From the NCBI RefSeq assembly GCF_965363235.1, contig NC_134841.1:62641078-62705077 (forward strand): a DNA stretch of 64,000 bases. Reading direction: 5' to 3'. This document shows, in pieces, positions 2,698 through 62,819 of the stretch (position 1 is the stretch's first letter; every line of letters begins with the position of its first letter). The notes under the pieces were generated by a model. That model had not been told where the DNA came from and ran no database searches. It saw only the letters and a program-made list of their open reading frames with translations. The position numbers and the translations under genes are program-made. This DNA is from Mytilus galloprovincialis (Eukaryota > Mollusca > Bivalvia > Mytilida > Mytilidae).

Positions 2698-3775
2698 GGT
2701 TCAAACAGAAAAAAAATGAAAGCAGAGAAAACAATGTATCTTATAATCGGCATGACTTTTAATATCAGATGACAATACCAATACTAAAATAAGGCTTAGC
2801 AGGGCCGTAACTACATTGAGGCAAAAGAGGCAAATGCCTCCTGTTGAAAATTTAAAAAAAAAAATGAAACAAAAGGTTGTCTTCATATCAAATTGTTTTC
2901 ATGGAAAGTGTCTTGCAAGAATCAAGTTCTTTTCACTCTGATGTTTTAGTTTTCAGAGTTGATGGTCAATTGTTTGTACTTCTGTGTCCCGGGTTTGTCC
3001 TTGTATTATTATAATCATTGTATATACATGTAAATGATGTTTTTTTACTATAGAGACGGTGTCACAATTATGTGTAACTTGCTTTAGATCTGAAATGAAT
3101 GGATGTATAGGCACATTATCAAATCATATACCTTTGCAATAATTCTGTAATAATTCCTATCTGACAATCCATATATACAGTATACAAAATGATTCAGATT
3201 AACTGACTAACGTGATCAAGGAATTCTTGGCTTTACTGGCTCAGTATGGAAAATAGATGTATTGTACAGGCAAAACAAAAATCCCGAATAGCTCATTCCT
3301 GTGTATAAATAATAGTTAATTTATGGCTGTAAAAATCGTCTGTATTTTATAGGAGTGTAAGATTTTTTAAGTTATATACAGGAACTTCAATGATCTTTAC
3401 TTTACTGAGCAACGATATACAATCAAGACTCTCACGAATGAAATTAACTGTTTTTAATTTACGAAAAACAAAAAAAATCGTTCTACACAAAATTCGTGAT
3501 AATTTTAAGCACTAACAAAAACATTTTGATTCATTTCAGTCACATAATTTTGAACAAAAAAATAACAGCTAACATATATAAACATTCAATACAATTCTTC
3601 GTTCTTGAACAACACAAACAGCTAACATGTAACAGCTAACTACTTGAAACATTAAATTCAGTTTCTTTGCATGTAACGTTTTATCATTATCAAATCCTAC
3701 TGTAGATATAGGTAAAGTTAATATAACAAGTTTTTGAATGTCTCAACTTAAATCTGGTCCTTTTTATGTCCTCTT
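2698..3775. other. Region downstream of the kinase gene
   Basis: AT-rich, no convincing coding frame. The part next to 3775 probably holds the 3' UTR of the minus-strand kinase gene. I found no strong poly(A) signal on the minus strand, so its end is undefined. Confidence 0.4.
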
Positions 3776-8779: not shown

Positions 8780-11280
8780 TAGCTGCAACAGACACCAAGG
8801 GACGATGCTCTAGGATTGTGATCTTAAAAGCTCTAACAATCCTCCTCGTATCTGATGCAGAAAAACAAACATAAATGAAAAAAGTTTGTGTATATTCACA
8901 GCGAATAACATATACTGCAGTAAACAGGTATTGAGAATAGTGTAGGTTTCCCTACTGCAACAGACACCAAGGGGCGGTACTCAAGGAGCTGTGGTATTTA
9001 CACAGTCCTCCTCGTGTCTGAAGCAGACAAGAAAGCCACATAATTAACAATTTTTCGAAATAAATTTACATGCAGCAGTGAGAATAGATTTATCTTCTGT
9101 GTTCATAAGCCATATCAGTTTATCTCTTGCGTTAAGAGTTAAAAAGTTGGGGCAACTTTTAGTTATCTCTTGAAATAGATGATTGCGGTCATCATTAAAT
9201 TTAACACATTGGAATAAAAAATGATATTCATCCTCCACATCTCCGGAGTTACAACGAGTACAAGTTCTGTCATTTAGGAGAGTACCCTGATACCTTCCGG
9301 ACTCAAATCTTAAGTGGTGTGATGACATTCTGAGCTTTGTTAAGCTTCGTCTCTGTTCAAAATTCCCAATAATGGAAAGATATTTTTCTCTTCCAAAAAC
9401 TGATTTAAATGTAACATAAGTTCTAAGTTTACCATCTGAATGCTTTACCAATTCAGTGTTCCACAAGTCTATAAAATATGATTTTAATATTTTTTTCATA
9501 TTAGCTTTGAAGCTATTAATTTTTGGTAATGGTGAAGATAGATGATTGATGTCTGGGATCATTTCAAGAATTGACTTCATAGAGCCATACCAAGATGTTT
9601 TTTTTTGAGTGAGAAAGATTCTGTGATGTTACATAAGCATCTTTAAGAAGAGAAAATTGGGAATCAAGATTTTCCAAGCGATACCAGTAATTTAACATGG
9701 ATTTAATCACATCATAATACAGTGGGAATCGTCCTAGCTCGGATAAAATTCCAAAATTCATGGATTTTTTTATGAACACCTAAAACCAGTTTACAAAATT
9801 TTATATGTAGTCGCTCACATTTTAAACTGGAATAGATTTTTTCAAATGGTAAAGTTCCATTTCTGAATCTTGCTGCGAATGGATTAAAAGTTCCCCATAT
9901 TTCAGACCCATATAGGAGTATTGGTTTTATGGTATGATCAAATACATGTAAGCTGGTACTTATGCTTTGATTAAGTGATAATAAATTCTTGTACAATTTA
10001 TAATAAGCCTTCAAGGAATTTTTATACAGTTCATTCTGAGCATATGAAAATGACCCTGATGCACTAAAGTGCAAACCAAGATATTTATAATTATTAACAC
10101 TCTCAATCAACATATTTTCATAAGTAAATTTTTCACAAATGTGTCTGCCTGCTTTGTTGAATATCAGAACATTTGTTTTGGTGTGATTTACACTTAAACA
10201 CCAATCTTTACAATATTTTTCTAGGATGTTTAGTCTTGTTTGCAATCCTTTAGCAGATGTTGATAAAAGGACCAAATCATCTGCATATAATAAGCAATCA
10301 ACTGGTTTCTCATTAAGTATAACAGGGTCTTCACTTTCTTTTAAATACTCTGGCAAGTCATTTATAAATAGATTGGGACTTAAATGGTCCCCTTGTTTAA
10401 CTCCAAGTTTTATTTGGAAAAAATCTGTTACTCTGGATTGAATTTTAACACAAGATTTACTTGATTCATACATGTGTTTAATAACATTATAAAATGAAGT
10501 ACGCAGATAGTAATTTCAACTTAATACCAGTATGAATGACTGTGTCGAAAGCTTTCTGAAAATCCACAAAGCAGGCATAAACCCTTCCATCCTTTGAATT
10601 ACAATATTTATCAAAAATACATTTAATAATAAACATGTGATCTGAAGTTCTAGCTTTTTTTGTGAAACCTAATTGACATTCATGAATTAATTTATGTTTC
10701 AATAAAAAAATCATCAAACCTACTATTTAGAACACTATTAAACACTTTTCCAATGGCACTGGTCACTGTGATTCCTCTATAATTGTTAGGATTTGTAATG
10801 TCACTAGATTTGTGAATTGTTGAGATGCAACCATCACTCCAGCACTTGGGATAAATTCCAGAAGAAAGACAAGTGTTAAAAAGTTTTTTAAGAATAGGTA
10901 ATAGAATTGATTGACCATGTTTTAACATATTGTTTGAGATGTTATCCATCCCTGGACTTTTGTTAGGTTTTAGTTTAGCTAAAGCTTTTGATATTTCAGT
11001 GTCTTTTATGGAAATATCAAGCTCATTAAAGCATTTTACTGTCTCTAATTTATCTAGCTGTTTTTGTAATTCTTTCAGGCGTGCCTTGAATTTGTCCTGT
11101 AAAGTATTCAAATTTTGAAAATGTGAAAACCATGTAGATGAATCAATTGTAGAATAATTTTCATCATGTTTTTTGGTGTCCTTCAAGTCATTTATAAGGT
11201 TCCAGTATAGTTTTGGATTGTCTGCGTGTAAATTTTCTAATTGATTAAGCAAGGATTGTTTGTATTGTCTGTATGTAAAG
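8780..11280 (-). mobile_element. Decayed non-LTR retrotransposon (LINE), 5' truncated
   Basis: Minus-strand frames in order 11252-10692, 10717-10487, 10473-9712, 9779-9564 and 9580-9044 together read as a LINE second ORF. They show the RT entry (LKPNKSPGMDNISNNMLK), NPNNYRGITV, FVDFQKAFDTV, KQGDHLSPNLFINDLP, the catalytic YADDLVLL, NHTKTNVLIF, and a C-terminal CTRCNSGDVEDEYHFLFQC cysteine/histidine motif. Adjacent frames overlap or are offset, so at least four frameshifts break it. No endonuclease domain is present upstream of 11280, so the copy is 5' truncated. The motif style suggests the Jockey/CR1-like broad group; the clade is uncertain. The 3' UTR lies to the left (about 8.8-9.04 kb). 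Confidence 0.88.
8786..9035 (-). repeat. Duplicated ~80-bp motif in the LINE 3' region
   Basis: Segments at about 8786-8865 and 8957-9035 both start CAACAGACACCAAGG and both continue through 'cctcctcgt.tctga.gcaga'. They lie just 3' of the LINE coding remnant, so they are probably part of its 3' UTR. Confidence 0.7.
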
Positions 11281-11563: not shown

Positions 11564-12545
11564 CAGGGGCGGAAACAGGATTTTGGAAAGGGTGGGCGAA
11601 GTAATTTTTATTTTTACCTTTTTAGGCTAAAAAACATAAAATAAGTGTACAATGAACTTTTTACACGGTTCCTGAAGTTGGGCATGCATATTTTATAGTT
11701 GCTGTAAAGTGTAAGGGTCGGACATTTTTGATGCCGTATTCTCCCATTATAAAATGATTGGATAGATCGAAAGCCATGTACTAATATAATTGATGCAGTA
11801 AAAAATGGACATGGAAATTTCTCGTTTGTTTATTTAGTAAAACCTCACAATTTATTTGTTGTAAACAACATAGACGCCCAGTGGCGGATCCAGAACTTTT
11901 CCTAAGGGGGGGGGGGGGGGGCGCTGACTGACCTAGGGGGGGGGGGGGCTCCAGTCATGCTTCAATGATTCCCTATATAATCAACCCCCAGCCCCCCCCC
12001 TGGATCCGCCTATGACGCCGGGCTATCGATGCATGGAATTTACAATAGACCTACACGAGATAAGAAACAAACAAACATTTTTTGTCCAAATGTTTGGTTG
12101 AAATGATTCAGCCAACAAGGGAAGTGAGGGTTCCAAATTAACCAAAGTCTACGAATGAGTCTGAAAGGACAACGAATTTATGAATGACGGTCGACAAATG
12201 GAGACATAATGGCCACACCAAGCAGGCAGGTTGCAGTCGGGCCTTAAAAAAAGTATTCAATATATCAGTTCGGCGAAACAAATATTCCGGTCAGATATGG
12301 GATTTACATGCAAACCCCGGCAACAAAAAATAACACCCGTTTAGTATTCATCATGTTCATTTTATGCTAAATTATTATGTTTGAAATTTTTGTTTCTAAT
12401 AGCAAATAAGTGGACAAAATTATTGTTTTCAATCCAGATATATACGACCAGAATTTTTGATTAAGACAAAAATCAGGGTAAGATTTTTTCTCTCAAACTT
12501 CTCAGATCATTGCCCCCTCAACGCCACCCTCTGGATCCGCCACTG
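11564..12545. mobile_element. CAGWGGCGGAT-family element, long copy (982 bp)
   Basis: It starts CAGGGGCGGAAAC and ends GGATCCGCCACTG. The 5-bp duplication CCTGT flanks it at 11559-11563 and 12546-12550. The interior has no transposase frame. A short sister copy (11879-12014) with its own duplication sits inside, so family members were mobile after this one inserted. Confidence 0.75.
11879..12014. mobile_element. CAGWGGCGGAT-family MITE, nested copy
   Basis: It starts CAGTGGCGGATCC and ends GGATCCGCCTATG, flanked by ACGCC at 11874-11878 and 12015-12019. The interior has long G and C runs. It lies inside the 982-bp sister at 11564-12545. Confidence 0.85.
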
Positions 12546-27000: not shown

Positions 27001-30000
27001 TAATTATTTACAGGATAGTCATATATCATGATATATAGTGTAAATTTTGATAGTCTATTGATAATGTTACACAGAAGGGACTTAGGCATGCTATTTTTTC
27101 ATCATTGGTGCCATCTCTGTATATATTATCAATTCTGTCAGTTTAAATTGAACCCTTTATTGTTAGACGATGATAAGCCGTTCTTGAACCATGATGCAAA
27201 TCTAATAAATGGTGTTATGTATAATGTAGGACTAAACAGATCAGTGACGAATCAATCAGCCGACATCCTTACTCATCTGATAAACTGTGATATCAAATGA
27301 TAGGACTGAGATCTGTCCAATATTCTATTTGATATAGGATAACTTTTTCGTGATCTATTCAGGGGGAGAATTTTTTCCTGATCTATTGAGTGGGATTATA
27401 GGTATTTATATCCTGTGAAACCAAATAATTATTTTATACTGAAGCGTTCAGATTTTTGTTCTAATTACTTTTCCTACATGATATTTCTTGATACTACTGA
27501 TGTTCCAGGTTGAGTAATCAGTATGTATATATGAACAATTTCAACTAATGTACATTTTAGTCATTTATTCTTTGTTCATTTCAGAGGTTATCAACAACAA
27601 GATGCCCATGAATTCATGAGATATTTATTAGATAGACTGCACACAGAACTTCTTTCATTGTTACCATATCCAAATAATAATAGTCCGTTTATAGGTCCGA
27701 AAGGAAAAAGTACAATTGTAACTGCCATTTTTGGTGGATTACTTCAGAATGAAGTCACATGTTTGGAATGCCGAATGGAATCTAAGAAACATGACCCATT
27801 TCTAGGTTAGTAATGCTGACACAGACACCTACAGTGTTCTAGGATTTTTTTGGCACCTTGACTTACCACGGGTAAGATCAATAAAAAAATTACTTACCCA
27901 CATCTAAAAGTTAAATCCGCCAACCAATGTGGACGGCGCAAAGTATACCCCCTGGTCCTTTTTTCAACATCATACAGTTTGTCTCTCTGCTTTTTGTCAA
28001 GTTTGGGCTTTTTTGGTGGGGGTGATGCTTGATTTATATCGTTTAACCTTTTTGAAGTAAATCCAAACTTATGCAAACTCATGATCTACAGATTCAGTTT
28101 GAATTTTCCGCCATAATAACTTTGAATATTGTAATTTACTGAACAAAGCTGGATTCGGATACGATTGAATTTTGTACAAAATTTAAAAAAAACGATTTCT
28201 TACTAAATTTGACAAATATGTTATAGTTATTACTATGTCATTTATTAAGAGCTATAATAAATGCAACTGTAAGTTTATTTTCCTCCGATGACAAGAAAAA
28301 AAATCGTTTATGTCCCGATTTAAGCACCAGTTATCAATCCGGATTTTCCGATTTTACCGACACCGTGACCGACTTTGAGAATGATAGGAGAAGAATGTGG
28401 TCTCTTTTGCGCTTGATTACACCTAGTAAACGAGTGCTTGAATAAAAGCGCTGATAGACATCGACAAAATCTTCGATCTTTTATCAAAGTTTTTTCTCGT
28501 GATTTAATAAAAATAAAAAGCAGATATGGGAAAATTGAAGAGGACCGGGAAATTTCAAGAGTTTTTCGGCTTCCCCGAACTTGAAAATTGACTTACCACC
28601 GGGTGACAAAGGCTAAAAAATGACTTACCCGTTGTCCTAATCCACTTACCCCGGGTAACGGGTAATGGGAATCCTAGAACACTGCACCTAGATTACATGC
28701 ATAAACATTGAAATAGGAATAGTTCATAGAAGTTATCAAATGGAGATGTGGGTAAAAAGTACCATTATATTAATAATACATGGGTGATGGGTATCAGAGC
28801 AACTTTTCACACTATAATGCACTATAATTCTAAATTACAATAGTCTGGGTGGCGGGTGCTGACAAAAACTGCCTTCCAACCCCCATACATTTTTTTCCTG
28901 GAGTAGCCCTTGAAAGTACCTGGATTGGATACCTCATACATGTTTTAATGACAAACCATTAACATACATGATTTATATAACCACATTTAGCTTATTGTTG
29001 GTTTTTTTTTTACAGATCTTTCACTTGATATTCCACCTCAGTTTAGTACCAGATCCTCAAAAAATAAAGAAGGTGATCCAGTATGTCGTTTAGAAGGTAC
29101 ACAATAAAATAGTAGAACCTATTCAAATATATTGCAACCCTTATACCTCAGGAATTATGAATATAGTTTGTCAATTTCTTAGTAAAATATGACTCGAACG
29201 CATTGACAACAGCAAAATTTAAAAATGTTTAACCAGTCATACTGTTAATTTGTTAATGTTTGTGAATTGAGGAAAAGTGTTTTCGAGGATACTAGGAATT
29301 TGTGATTTTAATGAAATTTTGAAGTCATGGTTCACCTTTCTGACTAAATCAAGCAGTATATGTCTATTGAACTCGGCATATAATAATGATTTCAAAGTAC
29401 ATCTGTTCACAATAATGATTTGGGAGTTAAGTTGAAAATTCTGTCAACAAAATTAATGAATTGTACATAATCTGTAAAATAACTGTTTATTGTCCTGAAT
29501 AAATGATTTGGTAAAGTAGCATTATTTGTTAAAGAACAAACATGTATTCGTTTTCTTTTTCCAGATTGTCTTTCAAGTTTCACTGAGTTAGAAGAATTAG
29601 AAGCTTCTGAACTGTATATGTGTAGTAATTGTAAAAAGAAACAACGTTCCACAAAGAAATTCTGGATCCGCAGGTTGCCAAATGTAAGAAAATTCAACAA
29701 GTTGTTAAGACAGTGTTGGCTGTTTGTTTTTTTTCTACCTATTTTTAGTGTAAAGCTTGTGATTAACAGTAAACTATATCATGTATGTATAGCAAGTAGG
29801 TACTACCAAAGAAAGATACAGATTCACTTAGAAAAATAGTTAAGTGAATGCAGAAAAATGAAAGTAAACAGATCAGTGATGAATCAATCTGCCGACATCT
29901 TTTTTGTCTGATAAACTGTGATATTAAATGATAGGACTGAGATCTGTTTTACTTCATAAATATCCCGTTTCAACATCTTGAAGTGTAGCTTTTCTGATCT

Positions 30001-33000
30001 AAAATGACATGAACAACAGCTAATAATCTTTTCCATTGTAAAATTCAAGGATTTACTTTCCTACGCTTTATTCAGATATAATGAATCTGGCCTTTGCATT
30101 ATTATTTTTTTGCATCACATCAGTAGTATTGTCTTTTATTACACTGCATACACCTCTGTTGAAAGTAGGGAAAGTGCATTCTCTGGAGAAAAGTGCTCAC
30201 CAGGTCTTGGAACTGCTCAGCTTTTCATATGTTGATCATCATTATCTAGAGATATTTCCTCTCTGTCTCTCATGATTATACATTAATTCAACTGTAGAAT
30301 TAGATTTAGTGTTTAACAACGATTAGAAAAAGGCAAAAAAAAAGAATTCTGTAAAGGCCTTAAACTAAAATAAAGTGTTGCTATGCAAAGGAAATTAAAA
30401 GAGTATTATTTTTATTAAATAAGAAATGTTATTTGTGACACACAGTAATATAAGTAATCAGATCAGTGATGAAATAATCAGCCGACATCTTTTTTGTCTG
30501 ATTCACTGTGATTTTAAATGATAGGACTGAGATCTGTTTACTTTGTTTCATTCCATTTACCATCTCAAAGATTGTCTGATTTGATAAACATGGACAGCAG
30601 CTGAATTTTTAACCTCCATAATAATGAACGAGGGTATGTTTTCATCGGAGTACCAGAGGATTTGCGTTCATATGTTTTATCTTTATATGATGTGACAAGC
30701 CTATGAAAAAGATCAGCATTGCCTTTTTATCAAGATGTAATTATTGCATTGCTTCTGTTGTTCACTTTGCTTGTTTCAATTTTGTGGCATCTAAAGAGAT
30801 TTTGTGAGAGGGTTGTGGATATACATGTTAACTCCCTGACATCCCAACCATATTTAACAACAATCCTAATCAGCTTGTGCTTTTCAATTAATTTTTTTAT
30901 TTCTAAGTGTGTTTTTCAATAGAGGCTTTAACCTTGGATATTTTTCCCAACGGGAATTGAAAATATTGTTTACTGTTTTCTTTAGAATTGTACTTCTGTG
31001 TTGGTAATGTTGTACCCATGTTCATTTCATAGTTTTGAGAAATTAACATGAAGATTTATTTCAGAAAAGTTTCTCGTGTGTCGAGAACTGTTGACTAAGC
31101 TTCAATACCACTGTAAAATTTTCTTTGGTGTTAATCTATACATAGATGCCAACCATTACGATTTTTCCGTAGTTTTTCTGATTTTGCGAAAAAAACTACG
31201 CTATTACGGTCAAAGTCGAATAGTTACGGATTCCCAATCATCGACGTTCAATTTTGTAAAACGCGGATTTATATCATTACTTTTCCGTCCTGGTCCAGTA
31301 TTTAGGAAACGCCAATGTAATGCTTCTGGTTTCTCGGGAGTTATCAACCTATTGTTGGGTAACTAACTGACTTCCGAAGAGGCAAACTTGCATTTTATTA
31401 AGTAGCTTTCCCCCTTTCTCTACTTCTCCTTGACAAAACAAAAATGTTTGAGTCGAGAACATCTGAACAATTAATGAATGGAATACACAATTAGAAAAAA
31501 AAAGACAATAACAGAATTATTTAAAGGTCTTAATGTGATAACCCTTTTATTAAGAAAACTTTGATTTTAAAAATAACTAGTTTAAGTAAAATACAGTAGA
31601 AGAAAAATAACAGATCAGTGATGAATCAATCTGCCGACATCTTTTTTTGTCTGATAAACTGTGATATTAAATGATAGGACTGAGATCTGTTTTATTTCAT
31701 TATTCTTGATTCATTCCATTTCTAATCATGTAAGTACAGATTGTCTAACATAACAATGTTAGAAGTACAACAACACTTCAAGTTCAGGTCAGGAATTTTT
31801 TTTTTTACCAAACATTGACCAAACATGTCTAATAATAAATACCTGGTAAAGACTTTGATAACTGAACAATATAAACTTTTTATGGAAGATTAAAATAATA
31901 CTTAACACTAAAACTACATCTTCTTGTATATGTTTTCTCTGTGGTTGCAGAATTGCAATCATATTGAAAATATTAACCTCCCTTTTGTACTGAATTTAAT
32001 TATTTCTCGACTTTCCCATGTGTAGAACTCAGGTTATTTTTATCATTGAATGTCAAGGAGAGTACCTTGATTTTGTCTTCTACCATATGTAATCTGGTTG
32101 CATCTGTGACAAGTAATTTGAGAATTTTTCAATATATACATGGTTCTAGGGAAAATAACATAGTGCAATGCCAGTTCAGGCACAATATTGCTGTTGTTAT
32201 GTTTAATCTTGCTTGCTGTCTCTTTCTGGTACATTTTATAATTTGTTTAAATGGTGTTTAATGGAAAGTGATGATAGAAATGTTACTATAATATCAAATT
32301 AAGTACCAAATTCATATTAATATTTGAAATACAGAGCCTTTTAACACTGAGAAATGTTGCTGGATCTATGATGAAATCAAACTGCAGACATATTTAATCA
32401 TCTGAAAAACAATGATACTTATTGATAGGACTGAGATCTGGCATTAGTTATTGAATTCTTCATTCTGATAGAATGCTACATTTATAAACTTTTGCATGTT
32501 TATATTGACTTTTAAAAAGATAGTAAATACAGTTCAGAAAGGGTTAAGCTCAGTACACATGTAGAATATATCCATTAATTTATGAAAGAATGTATCTGAA
32601 CATGATAGAATGACTAAATCATCAAAGTATTTATTGTCCCTAAGTAAACATATCAAAGGCTTACATAGTCCAGCCATTACACATGTAGAATATATCCATT
32701 AATTTATGAAAGAATGTATCTGAACATGATAGAATGACTAAATCATCAAAGTATTTATTGTCCCTAAGTAAACATATCAAAGGCTTACATAGTCCAGCCA
32801 TTACACATGTAGAATATATCCATTAATTTATGAAAGAGTGTATCTGAACATGATAGAATGACTAAATCATCAAAGTATTTATTGTCCTTAAGTAAGCTTA
32901 TTTGGTTGTAAACATGGCCTATTTATCCTGTTTCATTACATTGATAAATTTCCATATAGAAATTAGGTAGAATTAAAGAAAAGAATTACTTATTAAGATA

Positions 33001-36000
33001 ATTGTGAATATTTGTATAAAAGAAAGTAAACAGATCTGTGATGAAATAATCTGCCGACAGCTTTTTTGTCTGAGTAACTGTGATTTTAAATGATAGGACT
33101 GAGAACTGTTTTACTTCATAATTCAATTAGCGCTTCAACCTAGGGTTTATCATTTTTCATTTAACTTTATTCTTACTTTGCACAGAGATAATAATTAAAT
33201 TGAAAATGAGGTCTCTAATTTTGGACCCATTTAATTATTTTTTTGTGGTTGTCATGTGTGGAACTCAGTTATTTTTGCCATTTAATAATGAAGGGGGAGC
33301 CTAGTTTGTGTTTTATGTCAACAACTTCTACAATATGTATTTTGATTGTTTGCATAATCCATCCCTGTGTAGGGAACTAGTCATAAATAGGACATATTTT
33401 CTTCAGCATCTTAACTTCTTATGAGGAAAATTGTTTTTAAGTGAAGTTCAGTTAATAAAAGTAAACAGATCAGTGATGAATCAATCTGCCGACATCTTTT
33501 TTGTCTGATTAACTGTGATATTAAATGATAGGACTGAGATCTGTTTAAATCATGTTTCTTCCATTTCATCAACTTAGTGCTGAATGTCTGATATAAAAAA
33601 AAAACATATTTATATCAGCTGATGTAAGAAATGCAACACCTATTATAGCCGATTGCATTGAGGGTGGAGACAAAGGTAATATCTTTAGTTAGCTTGCTTG
33701 CTAGCTGAACCGTGAAGTAATTATTAGGTAAGGTATACCATCCTTATTTCAACATAGCTTTGTCCTTCAGACAGATAGATAGGTTATCTGTTGGGGTAGT
33801 CAACTCGTAAAGGAGGATAGTTTACCTAACCTAATAACAACTTCACAGTTCAGCTAGCAAGCAAGCTAAACAAAGATAAAACCTTTGCCTACACACTATT
33901 AATTTCAGATTTCTTTTGTCTTTCGCACATCATTATGTTGGACTATGAAATCCTTTGATAGTTCATGGAACAATATAAACTTGATGAAAGATTGTCACAT
34001 GCAACTCTGCTTGATCTATGATGAAATCAAACTGCAGACATATTTAATCATCTGATTAACAATGATACTTATTGATAGGACTGAGATCTGGCATTAGTTA
34101 TTGATGGGTCGCCATTTAGTCTTCATTCTGACACATTAAATTTTATAAATTTGATATTAACTTGAAATTTCTAATATGGAAAAAAACACATTGGCAACAG
34201 CTTTATGTTAGGATTACAACACCATCAAAGTTGTTATGCCCCATTTATGGGCATTATGTTTTCTGGTCTGTGCGTTTGTTCGTTCGTCTGTCCGTCTGTC
34301 CCACTTCAGGTTAAAGTTTTTGGTCTAGGTAGTTTGTTTTCTGAAATGTTTTGTCTACCAACCATCAACCAATGAAAGCCTTTGATACTGTGTATTCATT
34401 AATCTTTGTTGGAAATTTTTTTTCATGGATTTTATGGGAACAGGGGAACCAGGAATTTTACTGTTCAACAAAATACAAATACCCTGACAAACATATGCAA
34501 ACTTTTCCATAACAACAAATTTAAATATCCACAAATATGCAAGTTTCCCTCAATCCATGAAAATAGGTTCCCACAAAAATAGATGAATCATTATGAATCC
34601 ACAGTAATTCATGGAACACTTATCAACTTGATGAAAGATTGTCACATGTAACTCTGCTAGATCTATGATGAAATCAAACTGCAGACATATTTAATCATCT
34701 GAAAAACAATGATACTTATTGATAGGACTGAGATCTGGCATTAGTTATTGATGGGTCGTCATATATTCTTTATTCTGACACGTTATAAAGTTATTATAAA
34801 CTTACACAACTCTGCGGACTTAGTTTTGGTTAAGAAGAACTTTGATATTGTTCTTCTGTGTAAAAAATAAGTCCTGCATGAATGACGTTTATAAAATATA
34901 AACAAAAAAGAAATGATCTCAAATGAAATAATCTCGAATTAGGATGATGTTAAAGTGAAATACAGTACTAAAAGTAAACAGATCTATGATGAAATAATCA
35001 GCCGACATCTTTTTTGTCTGATTAACTGTGATTTTAAATGATAGGACTGAGATCTATTTTACAAATTCATAAATGTCTGCTTCCGTTGTTATTGTGTTCT
35101 TTGTTCTGTTGAATAAATAATGTATGGCAATTTGTCTCTTTCTAGGCAATTAGTGAGGAATAGGACATATTTGCTTGTATTCTATTAACTTATTATTAAA
35201 TCAAATGGTTTTAAAACTTCTATACAGATTTAAAAATAAAAATGATTGAATTGTTTTATGCTCATTGTTTAGTCTTGCATGAATGACATGTTTAACAAAA
35301 TAATATAGTAGTATTATATTTAACCCTTTCCTCCATTGACATTTTTTTTACACATACCTGATTCGCATAGGATTTTTTCAATTAAAAAAAATCATCAGGT
35401 TTAAAGTATCAATGCATTGCAAAAAGGAATATTTCATCAATGAAATTCCAGTCAAATATTCTCTTGAATATCATTTTTATATTAGATACAAATTTTATAA
35501 GTTCTGATAAAGATTTTTCCTTGGTAAGATGTTTCAACTGAAGCACTACACAGGCGTCAAAAGGCGTCATTATGGAGTAAAGGGGGTGGCGTCAAAAAGC
35601 GTCATTATTGAGGAAAGGGTTAAGGAAACCAAAATATCTTACAGAAAATTCATGTAAAGGGGGAATATACAGAAAAATGTAAACAGATCAGTGATGAATC
35701 AAACAGCCGACATCTTTTTTTGTCTGATTGACTGTGATATTAAATGATAGGACTGAGATCTGTTTAATAATAATTAAATTATTATTCATAATTCATTCCA
35801 TTTCACATCTTGAAAGTACAGATTGTCTGATATATAAAAAAAAAACCCATTGCTAACAGCTGAATGAAGCAATTACATTAACCCTGTACTTCTGTTGTAA
35901 TTTTTCAATACCAACCAAAGAGGAAACAAATCTTGACTAAATTACCACAATTAAGAATTATCTAGTCTGTAAGGTGCTGAAAGCTGTTCTCCAAAATAAA

Positions 36001-39000
36001 CAGTAAACTGCATGTCAATACACAATACTGGTAATGTTGAATTAACTTTAGCTCTAATAGTGTTTAAATAAAGTTTATGAAAACATCAAAATTAGTAGTT
36101 TGTCATTTAGAAATGTTGCTAGATCTATGATGAAATCAAACTGCAGACATATTTAATCATCTGAACAACAATGATACTTATTGATAGGACTGAGATCTGG
36201 CAATAGTCAATTATGGCAATGTAACAACAAAAAAAAATATATTTTTATTTTTAACTTTTAAGCATTATTTTGTGAAATCACAATAATTTCCTTTGCATAT
36301 TTGTACATTGCTAAAAAGAAAATGCACTCTTAAATTTCTGATGAACAGTATATGTTTATATATTAAAGTTGCACATCTTAGTTTAAGTAGAACCTAAAGA
36401 TAATTTTATCAAAAATCTAGTACAGCTACTGACATGTAGAAAAGTTTAAAAAAGAAAAATAATAGTATTATAAAGAAAAAAAGAAATCTGTTGAAAAAAG
36501 TTGTGGAATACATTTGAAAAAAGTTGTGGAATACATTTGAAAAAAGAAATTAAACAGATCAGTGATGAAATAATCTGCCGACATCTTTTTTTGTCTGATT
36601 AACTGTGATTTTAAATGATAGGACTGAGATCTGTTTTATTTCATTCCATCTAATTATCTTAAAAAGTAATAACAATAATTTAAAACTTATGCAGTCTGAT
36701 ATTTAAAAAATTGCATGAACATGTCTTGTGTTTTGATCGCAATTACACTGAAGTTCATGTTTTTAAATGAAGCATATTGTAAATAAATTATATGATTGAT
36801 ACCAATCATAGACAAAACAAGTCTTGACTTGAAGATAAATATAAGTTTGACGAAACATTAACATTGTCGATGTGCACCTCTAATTTGGACAGCTTTGAAA
36901 TGATTCTCAGGTTTAATTTTGGTGGAACTTGGTCAATTTTGTCATTGAGTTTATAAGGGTACCCTATTTGTGTCATATGTTTGCAACTGCCTTTAAATTT
37001 TCATACTGAAGCACTTTGATTGGTTGTACCTTTGACACACTAAATTCTTACTTTTGATCATTTTACTAAATATGTTAATAGTAATGGCTGTACTTTAAAG
37101 CTGCACAGTGCATTTCAGGTCCAGGCACACTATCGGTCTTGCCTGATTGACCTTGTCTTATTTTTCTGTGTATGATACACATTTTATAATTTATAAATGG
37201 AGTTTAAATAAGGTAGATGAAGAATATTTATCTCTTGTAACAAATCTAAAATCAAAACTGTTTTAATTTATATATCTTAAATTGTGTTTTTTTTTTCTTT
37301 TTATCACTGAGAAATGTTGCTGGATCTATGATGAAATCAAACTGCAGACATATTTAATCATCTGAAAAACAATGATACTTATTGATAGGACTGAGATCTG
37401 GCATTAGTTATTGATGGATAGTCATTTAATCTTCAGTCTGATAGAATACTGTAAATTCTTAAATTTTTCCATTGTTTTTATTATTGGAAAATTGTGCTGT
37501 GATAGGTGTGCAGAAGCTAAAAACTTTGTAATTACACGTTTGTAGGTGTGCAGAAACTAGAAACTTTGTAATTACACATTTGTATGGAGCATTTTCTGTA
37601 ATTACAATTATTTTTGTGCATTTTAGTTCATTGATCAATATTAGCAATATTTATTGCACAAAATCCTGTAATGACATGTAGAAAAAGAAATAAAAGTAAG
37701 TTGGAGTATTGAAAAAAAGGTACCAAAATCTCTCTTCAAAAAAAATATTGAGTGAAATGCATGTGTACAGTAAAAAGAAAGTAAACTGATCAGTGATGAA
37801 TCAATCTGCCGACATCTTTTTTGTCTGATTAACTGTGATATTAAATGATAGGACTGAGATCTGTTTAAATCCTGATTCATTCCATGTCATCAATTAAATG
37901 CTGAATTTCTGATATAGAAAAACAGCAACAACAGCTTGATGTAAGGATAGCAACACCAACAAAGTTTAATTCAGAACTTTTTTTATCTTCCAAACATTGA
38001 ACAACCATGTCATTCTATGAAAGCTTATGATAAATCATGGAACATTATAAACCTGATGAAAGATTGTCACATGTAACTCTGCTAGATCTATGATGAAATC
38101 AAATTGCAGACACATTTAATCATCTGAAAAACAATGATACTTATTGATAGGACTGAGATCTGGCATTAGTTACTGATGAGTCGTCATTTCATCTTCATTC
38201 TGAGATATTATAAAGTTAATATAAACTTGCACAATTCAGAGGACTTATCAGAGGCGGATTTAGGGGGGGGGCCCAGGGGGCCCGGGCCCCCCCTTTTTGG
38301 GAAAAAATTTGGTTGCTTATATAGGGAATCACTGAAGCGTGACTGGAGCGGGCCCCCTCTTAGGTCAGTCAGTGGGCCCCCACTTATGAAAATTTCTGGA
38401 TCCGCCACTGCTTATAGTTGATATGGTTCTTCTGTGTCAAAAATAAGTCCTGCATGAATGATAGGTATAAACAAAAAATATTATCAAATGAAATAATTTC
38501 ATTAGGAAGATTGTAAAGTAAAAAAACAGTAAAAGAAAGAAAACAGATCAGTGATGAAATAATCTACCGACATCTTTTTTGTCTGATTAACTGTGATATT
38601 AAATGATAGGACTGAGATCTGTTTTGTGTTATATTATTCCATTTGATTATTTCAAAGACAAATAATGTCTAATGTTTAAAAAAAACCCAAGGAAAACAGC
38701 TTAATGTTCATGTCAGAAATCATGTTTCAATTTGTTTTGCTGTGATGTGTCTGTTTTTAGTTTGGTCCAAATCACAGCTGTTCCTCAGTGTCAATTGAAT
38801 TTCAGGGACCTTCATGTACTTTGTGACCATCATGTACCTTGTACTTAATATTTTATATTGAGATAATCAACAGATGGAAATAATAAGTGATGTCATCTAG
38901 GAGTAAACAGATCAGTGATGAATATAATCAGCCGACATCCTTACTCATCTGATAAACTGTGATATCAAATGATAGGACTGAGATCTGTTCGATATTCTAC

Positions 39001-42000
39001 TTGATATTTGAAATTTTTTTCGTGATCTTCACAGGGAATATAAGTCCATATCCCTTGTGAAGCCGAACAATTATATTATATTTGACTTTCTGGATTTTTA
39101 CAGGAATTTCAGTTCCTATATATGTATCTTCTGTTTTGATCAGAGTATATGGACCAATACCCTTTCAAGGTAACCAATCAAAATTGAATGATTAGTTGGG
39201 ATATAAGTGATGCTTTCTTGAATTAAACAGATCAGTGATGAATCAATCAGCCGACATCCTTACTCATCTGATAAACTGTGATATCAAATGATAGGACTGA
39301 GATCTGTTCAATATTCTACTTGATGTAGGATATTTTTTTCATGATCTACACATGGAATATAAGTCCCAATCCCTTGTGAAGCTTTACAATTAAATACTGG
39401 AGTGTCCTTATTTTTACACTAATTACATTTTCCTAAATGTATTTTCTGTTTTGATCACAGGATATATCACTGCAGTGTGAAATTGTTATTCATACCTGTA
39501 GTTGAAATATGTTTATATGATATTAACACTCCCCATTTAGTTCAGTTCAGCTGGATTGGTGATTGTTTTACACTGCATCAGTTCAGTTCTGATTTGACTC
39601 TTAAGCAATCGTCAGAATAAACTTAGATTAATAGGTATATGCCCTGGCACTTATTTTTGGATATTTTTGTATAGATTATATTGGCTTGTAGAATTTTTTT
39701 TACATGCCAGTATTAAATTTTATTGACTGGGCTGTTAGAGACTGCCTAAAAAATAGATTAATGGACCCTTTGTTGAAATCCATGAAAACTGTCACTGTCA
39801 GTAGGTAAACAAACAGATCTATGATGAAATCAAACTGCAGACATATTTAATCATCTGAAAAACAATGATACTTATTGATAGGACTGAGATCTGTTATCAT
39901 TTTGCATGAACATGACAAAAAGATTGTCTATTTTAAGCAAAGTGTAACCTTGTTAAAACTGCACTAAAATTATTGTTTGGATATACTTTCTTGACTTATA
40001 ATCTGTAACACTTGACTTTTGAAGTTATCAATAATATTCCATTATTATGAAGTAATTCTAATAGCATACCAGCGCTAGCATTGCTATTAATTTTGGGGAA
40101 GCAGAGGTTTATCATGTTGTAACACCATGAACACATGGAATGACATTGGGTAAAGAGATCAATGATGAATATAATCAGCCGACATCCTTACTCATCTGAT
40201 ATAACTGTGATATCAAATGATAGGACTGAGATCTCTTTTACCTTTAGATTAAAGCCTGACATAAACTGCATTTGTCAACAAGATCAATTTCAAATATATT
40301 AAGCTCATTTGGCATATTTGATATATCATAAATATGTTAAATAACAGCTAACCTTTTGTCTCATAAAATGATAATCTGGTTTTATTTTATTTTTTCGTGA
40401 ATTCAACATTTCAAGGATTGAGGAAAAAATTGTAGTCTTGGATATTTGATTTCTTGGTTTTGCCAAAATCTGCAGACAAGCACATAGAAAATTTGTGTTA
40501 TAAGTTGTGTTGATCGTTTTACTTTATTATACAATTTTTCATTTCAGGTATTGTGTCTCCATATCAAAAGATTCCGATGGCAGTCCTATTTCAGGGTGAA
40601 ACTGGATACATTTGTGGAGTTCCCGCTGAAAGATTTAAACATGAACAAATATGTATTAAACAATCTAGTAAGTATTGGAATCACATTAAACTATTTGGAT
40701 TTATTTTGTTAGACATTATAATTGTGCGGGGGAAAAAGTTTTCCAGTTTATGGCAGGTTTTTGTCTCTGTTAAAGAATGTATTCACTTATCTGGACTCGA
40801 TATAAAGCTCACAAATGGTATATGGTAGACATTTTGTTATTGTTGAAGATAAAATTAAGCCTTTACATTTCTTTTATTTTTACTAATGTTTGTGTAACTG
40901 TCTGTATCTTGTATAAGTATGAATTAAGCAATACTATTTTATTTAATACATTTTTTTTAATGTTTATTTTTTCTTCATTTCAGCATGAGACGCGAGGAAG
41001 TGGTAAGGGAGCAGCCAATGAGTATGATTTAGCAGCAGCAATTGTTCATCATGGTTCTGGGTACGTTAAAGTAGAATGTTGATACCTTATTAGATCACAA
41101 AATTAATATAAAAATTCACTTTTCTTTCTGACAACCCACTGTTTTATGTGTTGACCCCATATAAGGCCACAAAGAAGATGGAAAATTCAATTTTCTTCCA
41201 AAGACCAATCCATCTAGTGTAAGCACCTGTTTTGTAGATACAAAAACACAAAATTCTGTTCTGAGAATTCGCTCAAGTACAAATCATGATTAACATGTTT
41301 TCTGTAGGAAATTTGTAGGTTGACCGACATCAAATATATGTTCCAGCAATACCCCCTACTAAATTGGACAAATACCAAATTTACTGGACTAATGTCAAAA
41401 GATATTCTGATAGCATTTTCTATTACTCATATCTTGCTATAAATGCAGCCTTGATTTGTTTCAAATATGATCAAGGGGAGGGAAGGGTAACAATTGGAAT
41501 TTATAGGATACACAATTGCAAAAACCAATGGATTTAGGTAGCGTTCATTTGTCATTATTTTATTTTAGGGCTGGATCTGGTCACTATACAGCATATGCAC
41601 AGCATGATGGTAAATATTGAATTCTTAAAACTATCTTTCAAATAATTCTTAAAGTCATATGAAACCTCAAATTAAAAAAAAATATGCATCTGTTTTTTAT
41701 AACTAAATGGATAGTTTTCATTATAAAACTTTTGTACATATACTTTTTTCTGAGGAAAATTCTTTAATTTGTCCACATTTAGAAGAAGTTCACTTATTTT
41801 TAATTGCTTGCTTCCAGGAAGCAATTCGCCGACATATTTTCCGTATGCATAGTGACCTGAGCGTAACCCTCCTCGTAAAAATCCGGTGATCGCAATACGC
41901 ATGAATCTGTCATTAAAATAAACAATTATCTGATTGTACATGTTAAGCACGTGCTCAATACCCATGCTTTTTGTTATTTATTTACTATAAGGTGACAATC

Positions 42001-60000: not shown

Positions 60001-62819
60001 GGAGGTTGCTACTCCAAGATTTCAGGTTCAACAGTGTCCCTAATACCTTACAGAAATGTAACCTTTAATCCTAAATGGTCGAACAAGAGGTTGTAAATCC
60101 CAGACTTCTGGTACAGTAAGCGATGCTTCTTGTTAATAGAACTTTACCTTTAATCCTAAATGGTCGAACCAGAGGTTGTAAATCCCAGACTTCTGTACAG
60201 TAAGCGATGCTTCTTGTTAATAGATCCTTACCTTTAATCCTAAATGGTCGAACAAGAGGTTGTAAATCCCAGACTTCTGGTACAGTAAGGGATGCTTCTT
60301 GTTAATAGATCCTTACCTTTAATCCTAAATGGTCGAACCAGAGGTTGTAAATCCCAGACTTCTGGTACAGTAAGGGATGCTTCTTGTTAATAGATCCTTA
60401 CCTTTAATCCTAAATGGTCGAACGAGAGGTTGTAAATCCCAGACTTCTGGTACAGTAAGCGATGCTTCTTGTTAATAGATCCTTACCTTTAATCCTAAAT
60501 GGTCGAACAAGAGGTTGTAAATCCCAGACTTCTGGTACAGTAAGGGATGCTTCTTGTTAATAGATCCTTACCTTTAATCCTAAATGGTCGAACGAGAGGT
60601 TGTAAATCCCAGACTTCTGGTACAGTAAGCGATGCTTCTTGTTAATAGATCCTTACCTTTAATCCTAAATGGTCGAACAAGAGGTTGTAAATCCCAGACT
60701 TCTGGTACAGTAAGGGATGCTTCTTGTTAATAGATCCTTACCTTTAATCCTAAATGGTCGAACGAGAGGTTGTAAATCCCAGACTTCTGGTACAGTAAGC
60801 GATGCTTCTTGTTAATAGATCCTTACCTTTAATCCTAAATGGTCGAACAAGAGGTTGTAAATCCCAGACTTCTGGTACAGTAAGGGATGCTTCTTGTTTA
60901 CTAACTACAGCTGTTGTTCCATAGTCTACATTAAATACTTCTATCGTAAAATCTCTTCTGTCCGCTATTATCCACGATCTGGAAAAGAAATTTGGCAAAT
61001 TCATTTCTTTGTAAAGACATTTAGTAACGTAATGGAATAGTAATAGGTAAAATTTGTAAGGGTTCAGCAAAACCCAGTGTCTTGCCTACTTTTGCTGTTG
61101 TCTATGTTTTTCAGTGTGATAGGGGAATGCACATAATAGCTTTACAGTTAATGAAATGGTTTATGAATCTTATAAATGATTTAAAAACTTTAACTGCAGA
61201 CTGTATGTAAAGTTAACTGGACAAGAAAGTCCATTTATAAGTACATGTGTAATATTCTGAAAAACAGGAAATGAATTTTTGCAAAATTCCTTACAGATAC
61301 TAGAATTTGATCATTAACAAGCTTCTGTGCCTTTTTTTCTTTTTTTATAAACAAGTCCACACCTGTAAAAACTATCTAGAAACACTGCATAACGTAACAC
61401 CTGTCTTCTATCCTAGGCAGGGCATTAAAATATTGTAACCCTACTTTGAACCCCTATAATAAACGTACCTATACCATTCATCATCAACCTTAGCAGTACA
61501 TCTCCCTAAACCTTTTGTGAAACCTATTCTACTGTCAGGGTGTTGTAACTGTTCCATTACGTTTTCCAGATCTTCTAATGATGACACCTACAAAAACAAA
61601 ATAATTCATTGAATACCTGGTTTAATAGAAAAATAATTCAGATCATACATTCAGACTGTTCAATGGTATGCTTTAAATTTATTGATTTTTTTTCTTTTTC
61701 AGCGATATATCAATATGTCTTTCAGATAAGATTTCAATAGATTTGCCCTGAGGGTTATCAGTTGGGAAGATCCACATTTATGAATCGAATGCGTTTTGGG
61801 TAAAATTTGCAAAGGCTTACACCTAAACAATCTGATAATCTTATAATTTTCCAAACAATTGAGAAATTCAACCAATGACCTGACATTGTTTTAATTTTGG
61901 GGTATGAACCTAACTATGGTCCTTTCGATTCTGAAATTGAATTCCGAATCATTAAATCATTAGTGAAATTAAGCAACTGAGTGGGGATCTTATGATTCAA
62001 GTCCTTTTCAACTTATTTCAACTTTGTTTTTAGGTTGTGCTGTTACATCACTGTCCAAGGTAAGGATTAAGCATCACATAAAAGTTTAAAATCACCATAT
62101 CCTTGGTTTTCCCGTTTGAATGGTTTTACACTAGTAATTTTGGGGCCCTTTACAGCTTGTTGTTCTGTGTGAGCCAAGGCTCCGTGTTGAAGACCGTACA
62201 TTGACCTATAATGGTTTACTTTTTTTTCAAATTGTTATTTGGATGGAGAGTTGTCTCATTGGCACTCACACCACATCTTCCTATATCTATATCCTTTATT
62301 ACCTGAGCCAAGTCAGGGACCTGTATTTCAAGAGATGTCGGTGGTTGCTTTACGTCATTTTTGTTTTTGCATTTGAATTGTTTTTAATTTTGTAATTTAA
62401 GGGCCTTTCCTAGCTTTAGTATACAGAATGGGTTTTAATCATTGTTGAAATCTGTACATTGACCTATAATTGCTTATTTCAATATCCTATAATCTTTGCT
62501 GGATAGTTATTTCAATCAATATTTGTGTTAAAGGACAAAACAGATGCTTAATATTGATTCCTAAAGATCAATATCCTGAACCACAAAAAAAAGTAACTTC
62601 TTACATCAGCATCCTTAATAATCTGTCCCCAGAAAGTCTTCTCATCAAACACTGAAGTGATAAAAACCACGATTTCTTCATACGGTTTGAACACAATATC
62701 TCGAACACGGGTTCCCAACTTGTTCATAACTAGCTTGTATGTAACCATTAAATTTCTGAATGACTTTCCTACTGCACCAGTTGAAGCTGAAGACTTCAAT
62801 GAATCCATACTTTCTGCAC
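57004..62819 (-). CDS. Tudor-domain protein, last five exons (5' end outside window)
   Basis: Exons in transcript order: 62819-62605, 61587-61469, 60978-60827, 59351-59272, 57045-57004 (stop TAG). All have GT/AG ends and matching phases, giving 201 residues plus part of a codon. The product contains an extended Tudor domain: lead-in FKPYEEIVVFITSVFDEKTF (ligand-side strand common before eTud domains), then LGRCTAKVDDEWYRSWI, then FTIEVFNVDYGTTAVV, and a tail LFKAKVTATNADETGFLTE. Tudor domains with the aromatic WYR and DYG motifs bind methylarginine, and such proteins typically act in germ granules and the piRNA pathway. I cannot say which TDRD family member it is. Upstream exons must lie beyond 64000 or be missed. 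The third exon's 3' end and donor are part of an 85-bp tandem array to its left. Confidence 0.88.
57130..57440. repeat. Degenerate short repeats in the last intron
   Basis: About six imperfect copies of a ~45-bp word containing 'aagattataaattgacctg' and 'aaaagt.cttcaagatta'. It lies in the intron between the last two Tudor-gene exons. Confidence 0.6.
59432..59693 (+). repeat. Dispersed 'gggcataaa' repeat, short copy
   Basis: It runs from 'aacaagaatgtgtccatagt' to 'gtaggtggggcataaaa', like 18881-19390, but has only one internal unit and a degraded microsatellite. It lies in an intron of the Tudor gene. Confidence 0.8.
60082..60930 (-). repeat. 85-bp tandem array made from a coding exon and its donor site
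   Basis: Ten near-identical units start at 60082, 60167, 60251, 60336, 60421, 60506, 60591, 60676, 60761 and 60846 (one is 84 bp); three older, diverged units lie at about 59830-60080. On the minus strand each holds the coding text for PEVWDLQPLVRPFRIK, then the donor gtaagg, then a short intron piece. The unit nearest the gene is the real end of the exon at 60978-60827. The last six units alternate in two positions, making a 170-bp dimer. Confidence 0.92.
62098..62300 (+). repeat. Dispersed repeat, uninterrupted copy
   Basis: It contains 'ttggttttcccgtttgaatg', 'gaagaccgtacattgacct' and 'gagttgtctcattggcactc' in order, as at 17388-17610. It lies in an intron of the Tudor gene. Confidence 0.75.

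Follow-up and report, generated by a model that had tools for sequence, protein, structure and literature searches.

Introduction

Intronic small nucleolar RNAs (snoRNAs) of animals mostly lie one to an intron and are released by exonuclease trimming of the debranched lariat, although release independent of splicing is also known (PMC11028025, in excerpt). Introns of rice and Drosophila can carry several snoRNAs each (excerpts of PMC2780460 and PMC11028025), and the SNORD115/SNORD116 and SNORD113/114 loci comprise dozens of C/D paralogues that arose through local duplication, in tandemly repeated introns of an imprinted non-coding gene (excerpt of PMC4063771). Here, we analyse a window of 64,000 nucleotides (nt) from the mussel Mytilus galloprovincialis (NCBI RefSeq assembly GCF_965363235.1, contig NC_134841.1, positions 62,641,078 to 62,705,077, forward strand) in which one intron of the protein-coding gene USP3 holds 20 paralogous units that we read as box C/D snoRNA genes with a putative ribosomal guide, a further copy lying in a second intron of the same gene. 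Positions below are those of the window.

The locus resembles each of these systems in part. Like the rice and Drosophila clusters it is an intronic snoRNA cluster (20 units within 29684–40547, all in host orientation), but in content, cluster size being left aside, it differs in consisting of 20 paralogues of one guide in one protein-coding intron. It shares local duplication with the SNORD115/116 and SNORD113/114 arrays, whereas the arrangement of the SNORD115/116 type, in which each repeated intron of a non-coding host carries a single copy, is not found here: the mussel copies occupy one intron of a coding gene and appear to carry a ribosomal guide. Because that guide is identifiable in two of the three subfamilies (A and C), these copies would not be orphans like SNORD115/116. 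Intragenic snoRNA duplication is common in chicken and likewise places copies in tandem within one host gene, but the chicken paralogues sit mostly in different or adjacent introns, unlike the mussel array (PMC2653536, in excerpt). In sno-lncRNAs (long non-coding RNAs with snoRNA ends), which stem from introns containing two snoRNAs, the intervening RNA may stay protected (excerpt of PMC11028025). The mussel intron would hold 20 such possible roadblocks.

The guide itself has counterparts in the families snoMe28S-A3420 of Drosophila (RF04327) and ceN53 of Caenorhabditis elegans (RF01641), which show the same C/D architecture with a D guide AAUGAUAGG adjoining box D. The base between AAUGAUAGG and box D is A in the fly and U in the worm; in addition, CGACAUC occurs upstream in the fly family. 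Both are presumably low-copy families, whereas the mussel has 21 copies in one gene, with scores far below the family cut-offs. Intronic snoRNA clusters are known; what appears to be new is a ribosomal guide amplified about twentyfold in the intron of one coding gene. Literature searches combining snoRNA with mussel, bivalve or USP3 gave no description of the USP3 locus among the matches listed, the leading match of one search dealing with USP34 instead of USP3; this agrees with a first-pass annotation of the window, made from the letters and their open reading frames, which knew of none, and does not prove that none exists.

Results

USP3 carries 21 box C/D units on its own strand

A motif expression (box C RTGAYGA, D′ CTGA and box D within GGACTGAGA) found 21 units on the forward strand of the window and none on the reverse strand, 20 of them at 29866–40238 and one at 27234–27318. 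Alignment of the window with the Mytilus edulis USP3 protein (tblastn) placed the 20 units between coding exons 12 and 13, in an intron of 10.9 kb, and the extra copy in intron 9. The first-pass annotation had reported 20 copies in intron 12 in host orientation. This proved right for the array, whereas the 21st copy, outside the interval it had considered, had been missed. All copies listed below were identified by the motif scan together with a genome search using a subtype A query.

21049–42979, forward strand, USP3 host gene, 16 coding exons (tblastn with M. edulis USP3)
29684–40547, forward strand, USP3 intron 12, which houses 20 copies, with splice sites GTAAGA (5′) and TTTCAG (3′)
27234–27318, forward strand, copy 1, subtype C, in USP3 intron 9; box C at 27244 reads GTGACGA; two outermost stem pairs broken
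29866–29949, forward strand, copy 2, subtype A
30456–30539, forward strand, copy 3, subtype A; one stem pair broken
31608–31692, forward strand, copy 4, subtype A
32358–32443, forward strand, copy 5, subtype B
33028–33111, forward strand, copy 6, subtype A; one inner stem pair broken, accessory element 7 nt
33463–33546, forward strand, copy 7, subtype A
34008–34093, forward strand, copy 8, subtype B; one stem pair broken
34655–34740, forward strand, copy 9, subtype B
34976–35059, forward strand, copy 10, subtype A; one stem pair broken
35681–35765, forward strand, copy 11, subtype A
36117–36202, forward strand, copy 12, subtype B
36552–36636, forward strand, copy 13, subtype A
37318–37403, forward strand, copy 14, subtype B; identical to copy 5 across the 101-nt query
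37783–37866, forward strand, copy 15, subtype A; one stem pair broken
38080–38165, forward strand, copy 16, subtype B
38541–38624, forward strand, copy 17, subtype A
38905–38990, forward strand, copy 18, subtype C
39225–39309, forward strand, copy 19, subtype C
39811–39896, forward strand, copy 20, subtype B body with an A-type terminal stem
40152–40238, forward strand, copy 21, subtype C; C-G to G-C stem change, D′–D spacing 30 nt

As described in the first pass, box C reads RTGATGA in all 20 array copies; with the intron 9 variant, 20 of 21 copies have this form. Both D′ and D are CTGA in 21/21, and a C′ box of the form RTGATNN is present. The span from box C to box D is 65–68 nt, and the distance between the starts of D′ and D is 29 nt in 20 of the 21 copies; the single exception noted in the first pass is the copy at 40162 (copy 21), with 30 nt. 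A looser scan (RTGATGA, a CTGA 45–129 nt downstream and a stem of at least 5 bp) gave 20 matches on the forward strand and none on the reverse, the sole forward match outside the units lying at 9319; 20 shuffles of the forward strand in 2-base blocks gave a mean of 0.3. When the D′–D spacing was fixed and a stem of at least 4 bp was required, a design that by construction skips the copy with spacing 30, we found 19 matches on the forward strand, none on the reverse and none in each of 200 dinucleotide-preserving shuffles. The sequence features that mark a box C/D snoRNA (boxes C and D, terminal stem, D′/C′ and an antisense element of about 10 nt) are all present.

The protein spliced from the exons flanking the array (303 residues) had M. 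edulis USP3 as its best match, at 96% identity, which bears out the earlier naming of the host. A search of the PDB with the host protein returned other USPs, USP4 being the best, and no USP3 chain among the best 60 of 62 matches. Box C of the first array unit lies 192 nt from the 5′ splice site.

Conservation is confined to the unit and the terminal stem covaries

Across the 21 copies, mean pairwise identity was 0.91 for box C and 0.85 from D′ to D, and 0.73 and 0.77 over the 10 nt holding either side of the stem. Beyond −20 and +24 nt the mean ungapped identity of all copies was only 0.28–0.34, so that background is reached within about 25 nt of the RNA ends; the claim that the conserved unit is the RNA itself holds. 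The accompanying claim that the DNA between copies is largely unrelated holds for overall identity but not throughout, as the 3′ border is softer within subtypes (successive bins from D+14 gave 0.70 and 0.42 for B, and 0.67, 0.63, 0.53 and 0.42 for C), subtype C copies stay similar for about 50 nt past the 3′ end of the unit, and a number of spacers can be recognised as paralogous. No conserved block was seen farther than about 20 nt upstream of box C; no promoter scan was run.

Of the 180 cells of the nine-pair terminal stem (20 distinct rows), 93.9% were paired, and stems of up to 9 bp were found in all three subfamilies. Sixteen cells, in 4 pairs, carried changes on both sides, and the covariation score was 0.291; shuffles gave 0.130, and slid controls did not exceed 0.091. 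Five of the 11 unpaired cells fall at the outermost pair. Copy 21 contributes a C-G to G-C change of its own. The boxes and their spacing, the compensatory stem, the conservation limited to the unit and a guide like those of worm and fly support the reading of the units as box C/D snoRNA genes that the first pass had proposed for the 20 array copies.

The putative guide beside box D is complementary to a conserved 28S rRNA segment

The guide core with box D (TGATAGGA-CTGA) is invariant in 21/21 copies. In the A and C copies (14/21) the D guide AATGATAGGA abuts box D and is antisense over 10 nt to 28S TCCTATCATT. Upstream of D′ lies an accessory element, GCCGACATC or a variant of it, that is complementary to the adjoining 28S GATGTCGGC, whose leading GAT we assume; the match is 8–10 nt in 13/21 copies and 7 nt in one. 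The 28S stretch GAUGUCGGC paired by the A and C accessory element is one that we place at the peptidyl-transferase centre. The nucleotide 5 positions upstream of box D, where the D+5 rule places 2′-O-methylation, is T in 21/21 and pairs with the A of UCCUA; we take this A to be Drosophila A3420, going by the name and guide of the fly family and by an assumed fly numbering. The 28S segment as a whole is likewise our presumption of the sequence, and primers document part of it: the bird 28S primer GTCGGCTCTTCCTATCATTGTG (excerpt of PMC10864109) and the insect 28S D9–D10 primer CACAATGATAGGAAGAGCC (excerpt of PMC6717496). A preprint terms a cluster of 2′-O-methylated nucleotides at Drosophila 28S 3415–3420 fly-specific in comparison with human (PMC13228274, in excerpt), and a literature search on A3420 found no paper.

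A search of Rfam at a loose threshold gave 103 matches. The best E-value was that of C. elegans ceN53 (32.2 bits, E 0.002), and Drosophila snoMe28S-A3420 reached 32.2 bits with an E-value of 1.2 at best; the gathering scores of these families are 50 bits and 60 bits, respectively. Orthology with SNORD119 or SNORD63 was considered and dropped: human coordinates failed to place the site, and the presumed human sequence did not fit the numbering.

For the D′ guides, no convincing new target was found in the USP3 coding sequence, the only transcript tested. A 10-nt match of the A D′ guide to this sequence rests on a run of T, and because the T-run before D′ varies by one T among A copies, we argue that no exact target exists for the D′ guide of subtype A. 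The B D′ guide has an 8-nt match to what we take to be 18S sequence, which is near chance.

In the two C copies that were folded (39225–39312 and 40152–40241), TCCTTACTCAT before D′ looks like the 28S target, and the predicted fold pairs it with the copy's own D guide; this is possibly a guide-masking hairpin or a chance pairing.

Three subfamilies, probably spread by local duplication

The copies fall into subfamilies A (10 copies), B (7) and C (4), which differ in the stretches ahead of D′. Their order is C in intron 9, followed by A A A B A A B B A A B A B A B A C C B C in intron 12. In a tree, B stands apart from A and C together with support of 100/99, while A (72/78) and C (83/66) are weaker as groups; B copies are 97–100% alike over box C and D′–D. 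The paralogous spacers reflect block duplications, for example of 34600–35090 with 38026–38640. In four block pairs, chosen by the analyst and scored over aligned columns with gaps uncounted, unit identity was 0.95, 0.97, 0.98 and 1.00, whereas the aligned spacers had 0.80, 0.77, 0.79 and 0.70. This difference points to purifying selection, or else to conversion confined to the units. The intron 9 copy shares 125 bp, including the unit, at 94% identity with 39224–39348 (copy 19 and its 3′ flank).

We searched the whole assembly (1,384,861,812 bases in 331 contigs), skipping very common words so that counts are lower bounds. All matches lay inside the USP3 gene (21/21 with a subtype A query and 18/18 with a subtype B query). 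The first pass had named thousands of unrelated genomic sites as the finding that would speak against it; because every assembly match found sits in USP3, the unit is not a dispersed repeat.

Other repeats occur in and near the array. A short transposon-like insert with inverted ends occupies 38248–38410, where it separates copies 16 and 17, and has relatives at 2255–2378 and 11879–11986; it is absent from the paralogous spacer 34744–34967 and therefore probably arrived after the block duplication. The spacer after copy 5 (32554–32895) contains a 124-nt tandem repeat (2.8 copies, 99% matches), and an 85-nt tandem array (9.9 copies, 97% matches) lies downstream of USP3 at 60061–60898.

Discussion

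We consider it likely that the 21 box C/D snoRNA genes are local duplicates, within mussel USP3, of one old protostome guide for 28S methylation of the A3420 type. Repeated local duplication of this guide would have given rise to the three subfamilies. If the copies are transcribed, the AATGATAGGA guide would pair with 28S at UCCUAUCAUU and direct 2′-O-methylation of the A in UCCUA, and the accessory element GCCGACATC would pair with the adjoining GAUGUCGGC, probably as a docking aid. The amplification plausibly increases dosage, and subfamily B, with its weaker pairing but strongly kept sequence, is a candidate for a changed target.

Terminal stems of this kind, up to 9 bp long, favour assembly that does not depend on splicing. 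Since each copy has such a stem of its own, assembly of small nucleolar ribonucleoproteins (snoRNPs) should be possible away from the branch point, and many particles could therefore form on one intron before splicing or trimming. In the route that we prefer, many snoRNPs would assemble on the pre-mRNA or intron and internal cuts would then follow, because trimming from the ends would free at most the outermost of 20 copies and because stems are found in all subfamilies. The fuller scenario of a polycistronic precursor, in which 20 snoRNPs assemble independently of splicing and are either cut apart by an endonuclease or left as a string, with B retargeted, is a tentative one that we would regard as doubtful in its entirety.

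Several observations weigh against a shared ribosomal guide in 21 functional copies. Nothing in the window matched at Rfam gathering scores, and at the loose threshold SNORD33, SNORD34 and others also match weakly, SNORD33 (E 0.051) better than the fly family, in an alignment that rests mainly on boxes and stem. Minimum-free-energy z-scores of the five copies folded range from −0.9 to −3.2; strong folding is, however, not expected of C/D RNAs. Two of five stem measures did not exceed shuffles (double-change pairs, 108/500; further pair types, 399/500), and subfamily B supplies 15 of the 16 doubly changed cells, which therefore represent few events. The guide match that adjoins box D in the 7 B copies is limited to the 8 nt of TGATAGGA, with the next base mismatched; the longest B match to the 28S segment, of 9 nt, lies over the C′ box at 13 nt from D, and the accessory match shrinks to 4–5 nt. 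The mussel 28S itself was not found in the assembly with a 31-nt segment, or with a 23-nt segment at up to 2 mismatches, so the ribosomal DNA probably lies outside the assembly; a search of a genome-contig collection with the 28S segment also gave no match. The target consequently rests on the bird and insect primers and on a GAT before GTCGG that we assume. From the end of the last box D to the 3′ splice site is 318 nt, which exceeds the distance of splicing-coupled C/D snoRNAs. Finally, gene conversion could hold the units alike without use of each.

The alternative that fares best is that subfamily B has been retargeted, as perhaps has C by way of its own D′ guide, so that the array diversifies guides rather than raising dosage. 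The three subfamilies with their differing stretches before D′ and the well-supported split of B are in line with it, as is the near identity of the B copies in spite of a D guide that mismatches after 8 nt and a short accessory match. The guide core TGATAGGA is nevertheless invariant in B, and the search for new targets, confined to the USP3 coding sequence, gave none that convinced; we regard this as possible, though not the better bet.

It is also conceivable, if rather unlikely, that a few copies are processed and active and that the rest are decaying duplicates, alike through youth or gene conversion. One stem pair is broken in each of copies 3, 6, 8, 10 and 15 and two in copy 1, the accessory element of copy 6 is shortened, and birth and death of copies are described for SNORD115/116 (excerpt of PMC4063771). 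Against such decay, spacers in the four block pairs have diverged by 20–30% and units by 0–5%, D′ and the guide core with box D are intact in 21/21, and the stem shows compensatory changes.

A third reading divides intron 12 into several short introns by unannotated exons between the copies, each with one snoRNA, the arrangement of snoRNA host genes. A single snoRNA to each intron is indeed the common animal layout (excerpt of PMC11028025), but the coding exons on both sides of the array join in frame and match M. edulis USP3 without extra residues at the junction, an argument that concerns coding exons, and we judge this reading improbable. A dispersed mobile element with C/D-like boxes, whether a snoRNA retroposon or a miniature inverted-repeat transposable element, would account for many copies of a short conserved unit and has transposon-like sequence nearby at 38248–38410, but it can be set aside with near certainty, as a mobile repeat because no match lies outside USP3 within the limits of the assembly search, and as a product of retroposition because all copies share one orientation, array copies are linked by common flanks, and there is no poly-A tail pattern (within the 50 nt examined, the longest A-run has 9 nt behind copy 12 and 2–5 nt behind the other 20).

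If the units are local duplicates of one 28S guide, as we think likely, a ribosomal guide has been amplified here to the order of the SNORD115/116 arrays. With 20 copies in one intron, the locus would offer a direct test of whether animals release many snoRNPs from one precursor. It also predicts that a 28S methylation reported as fly-specific relative to human would be present in a mollusc as well.

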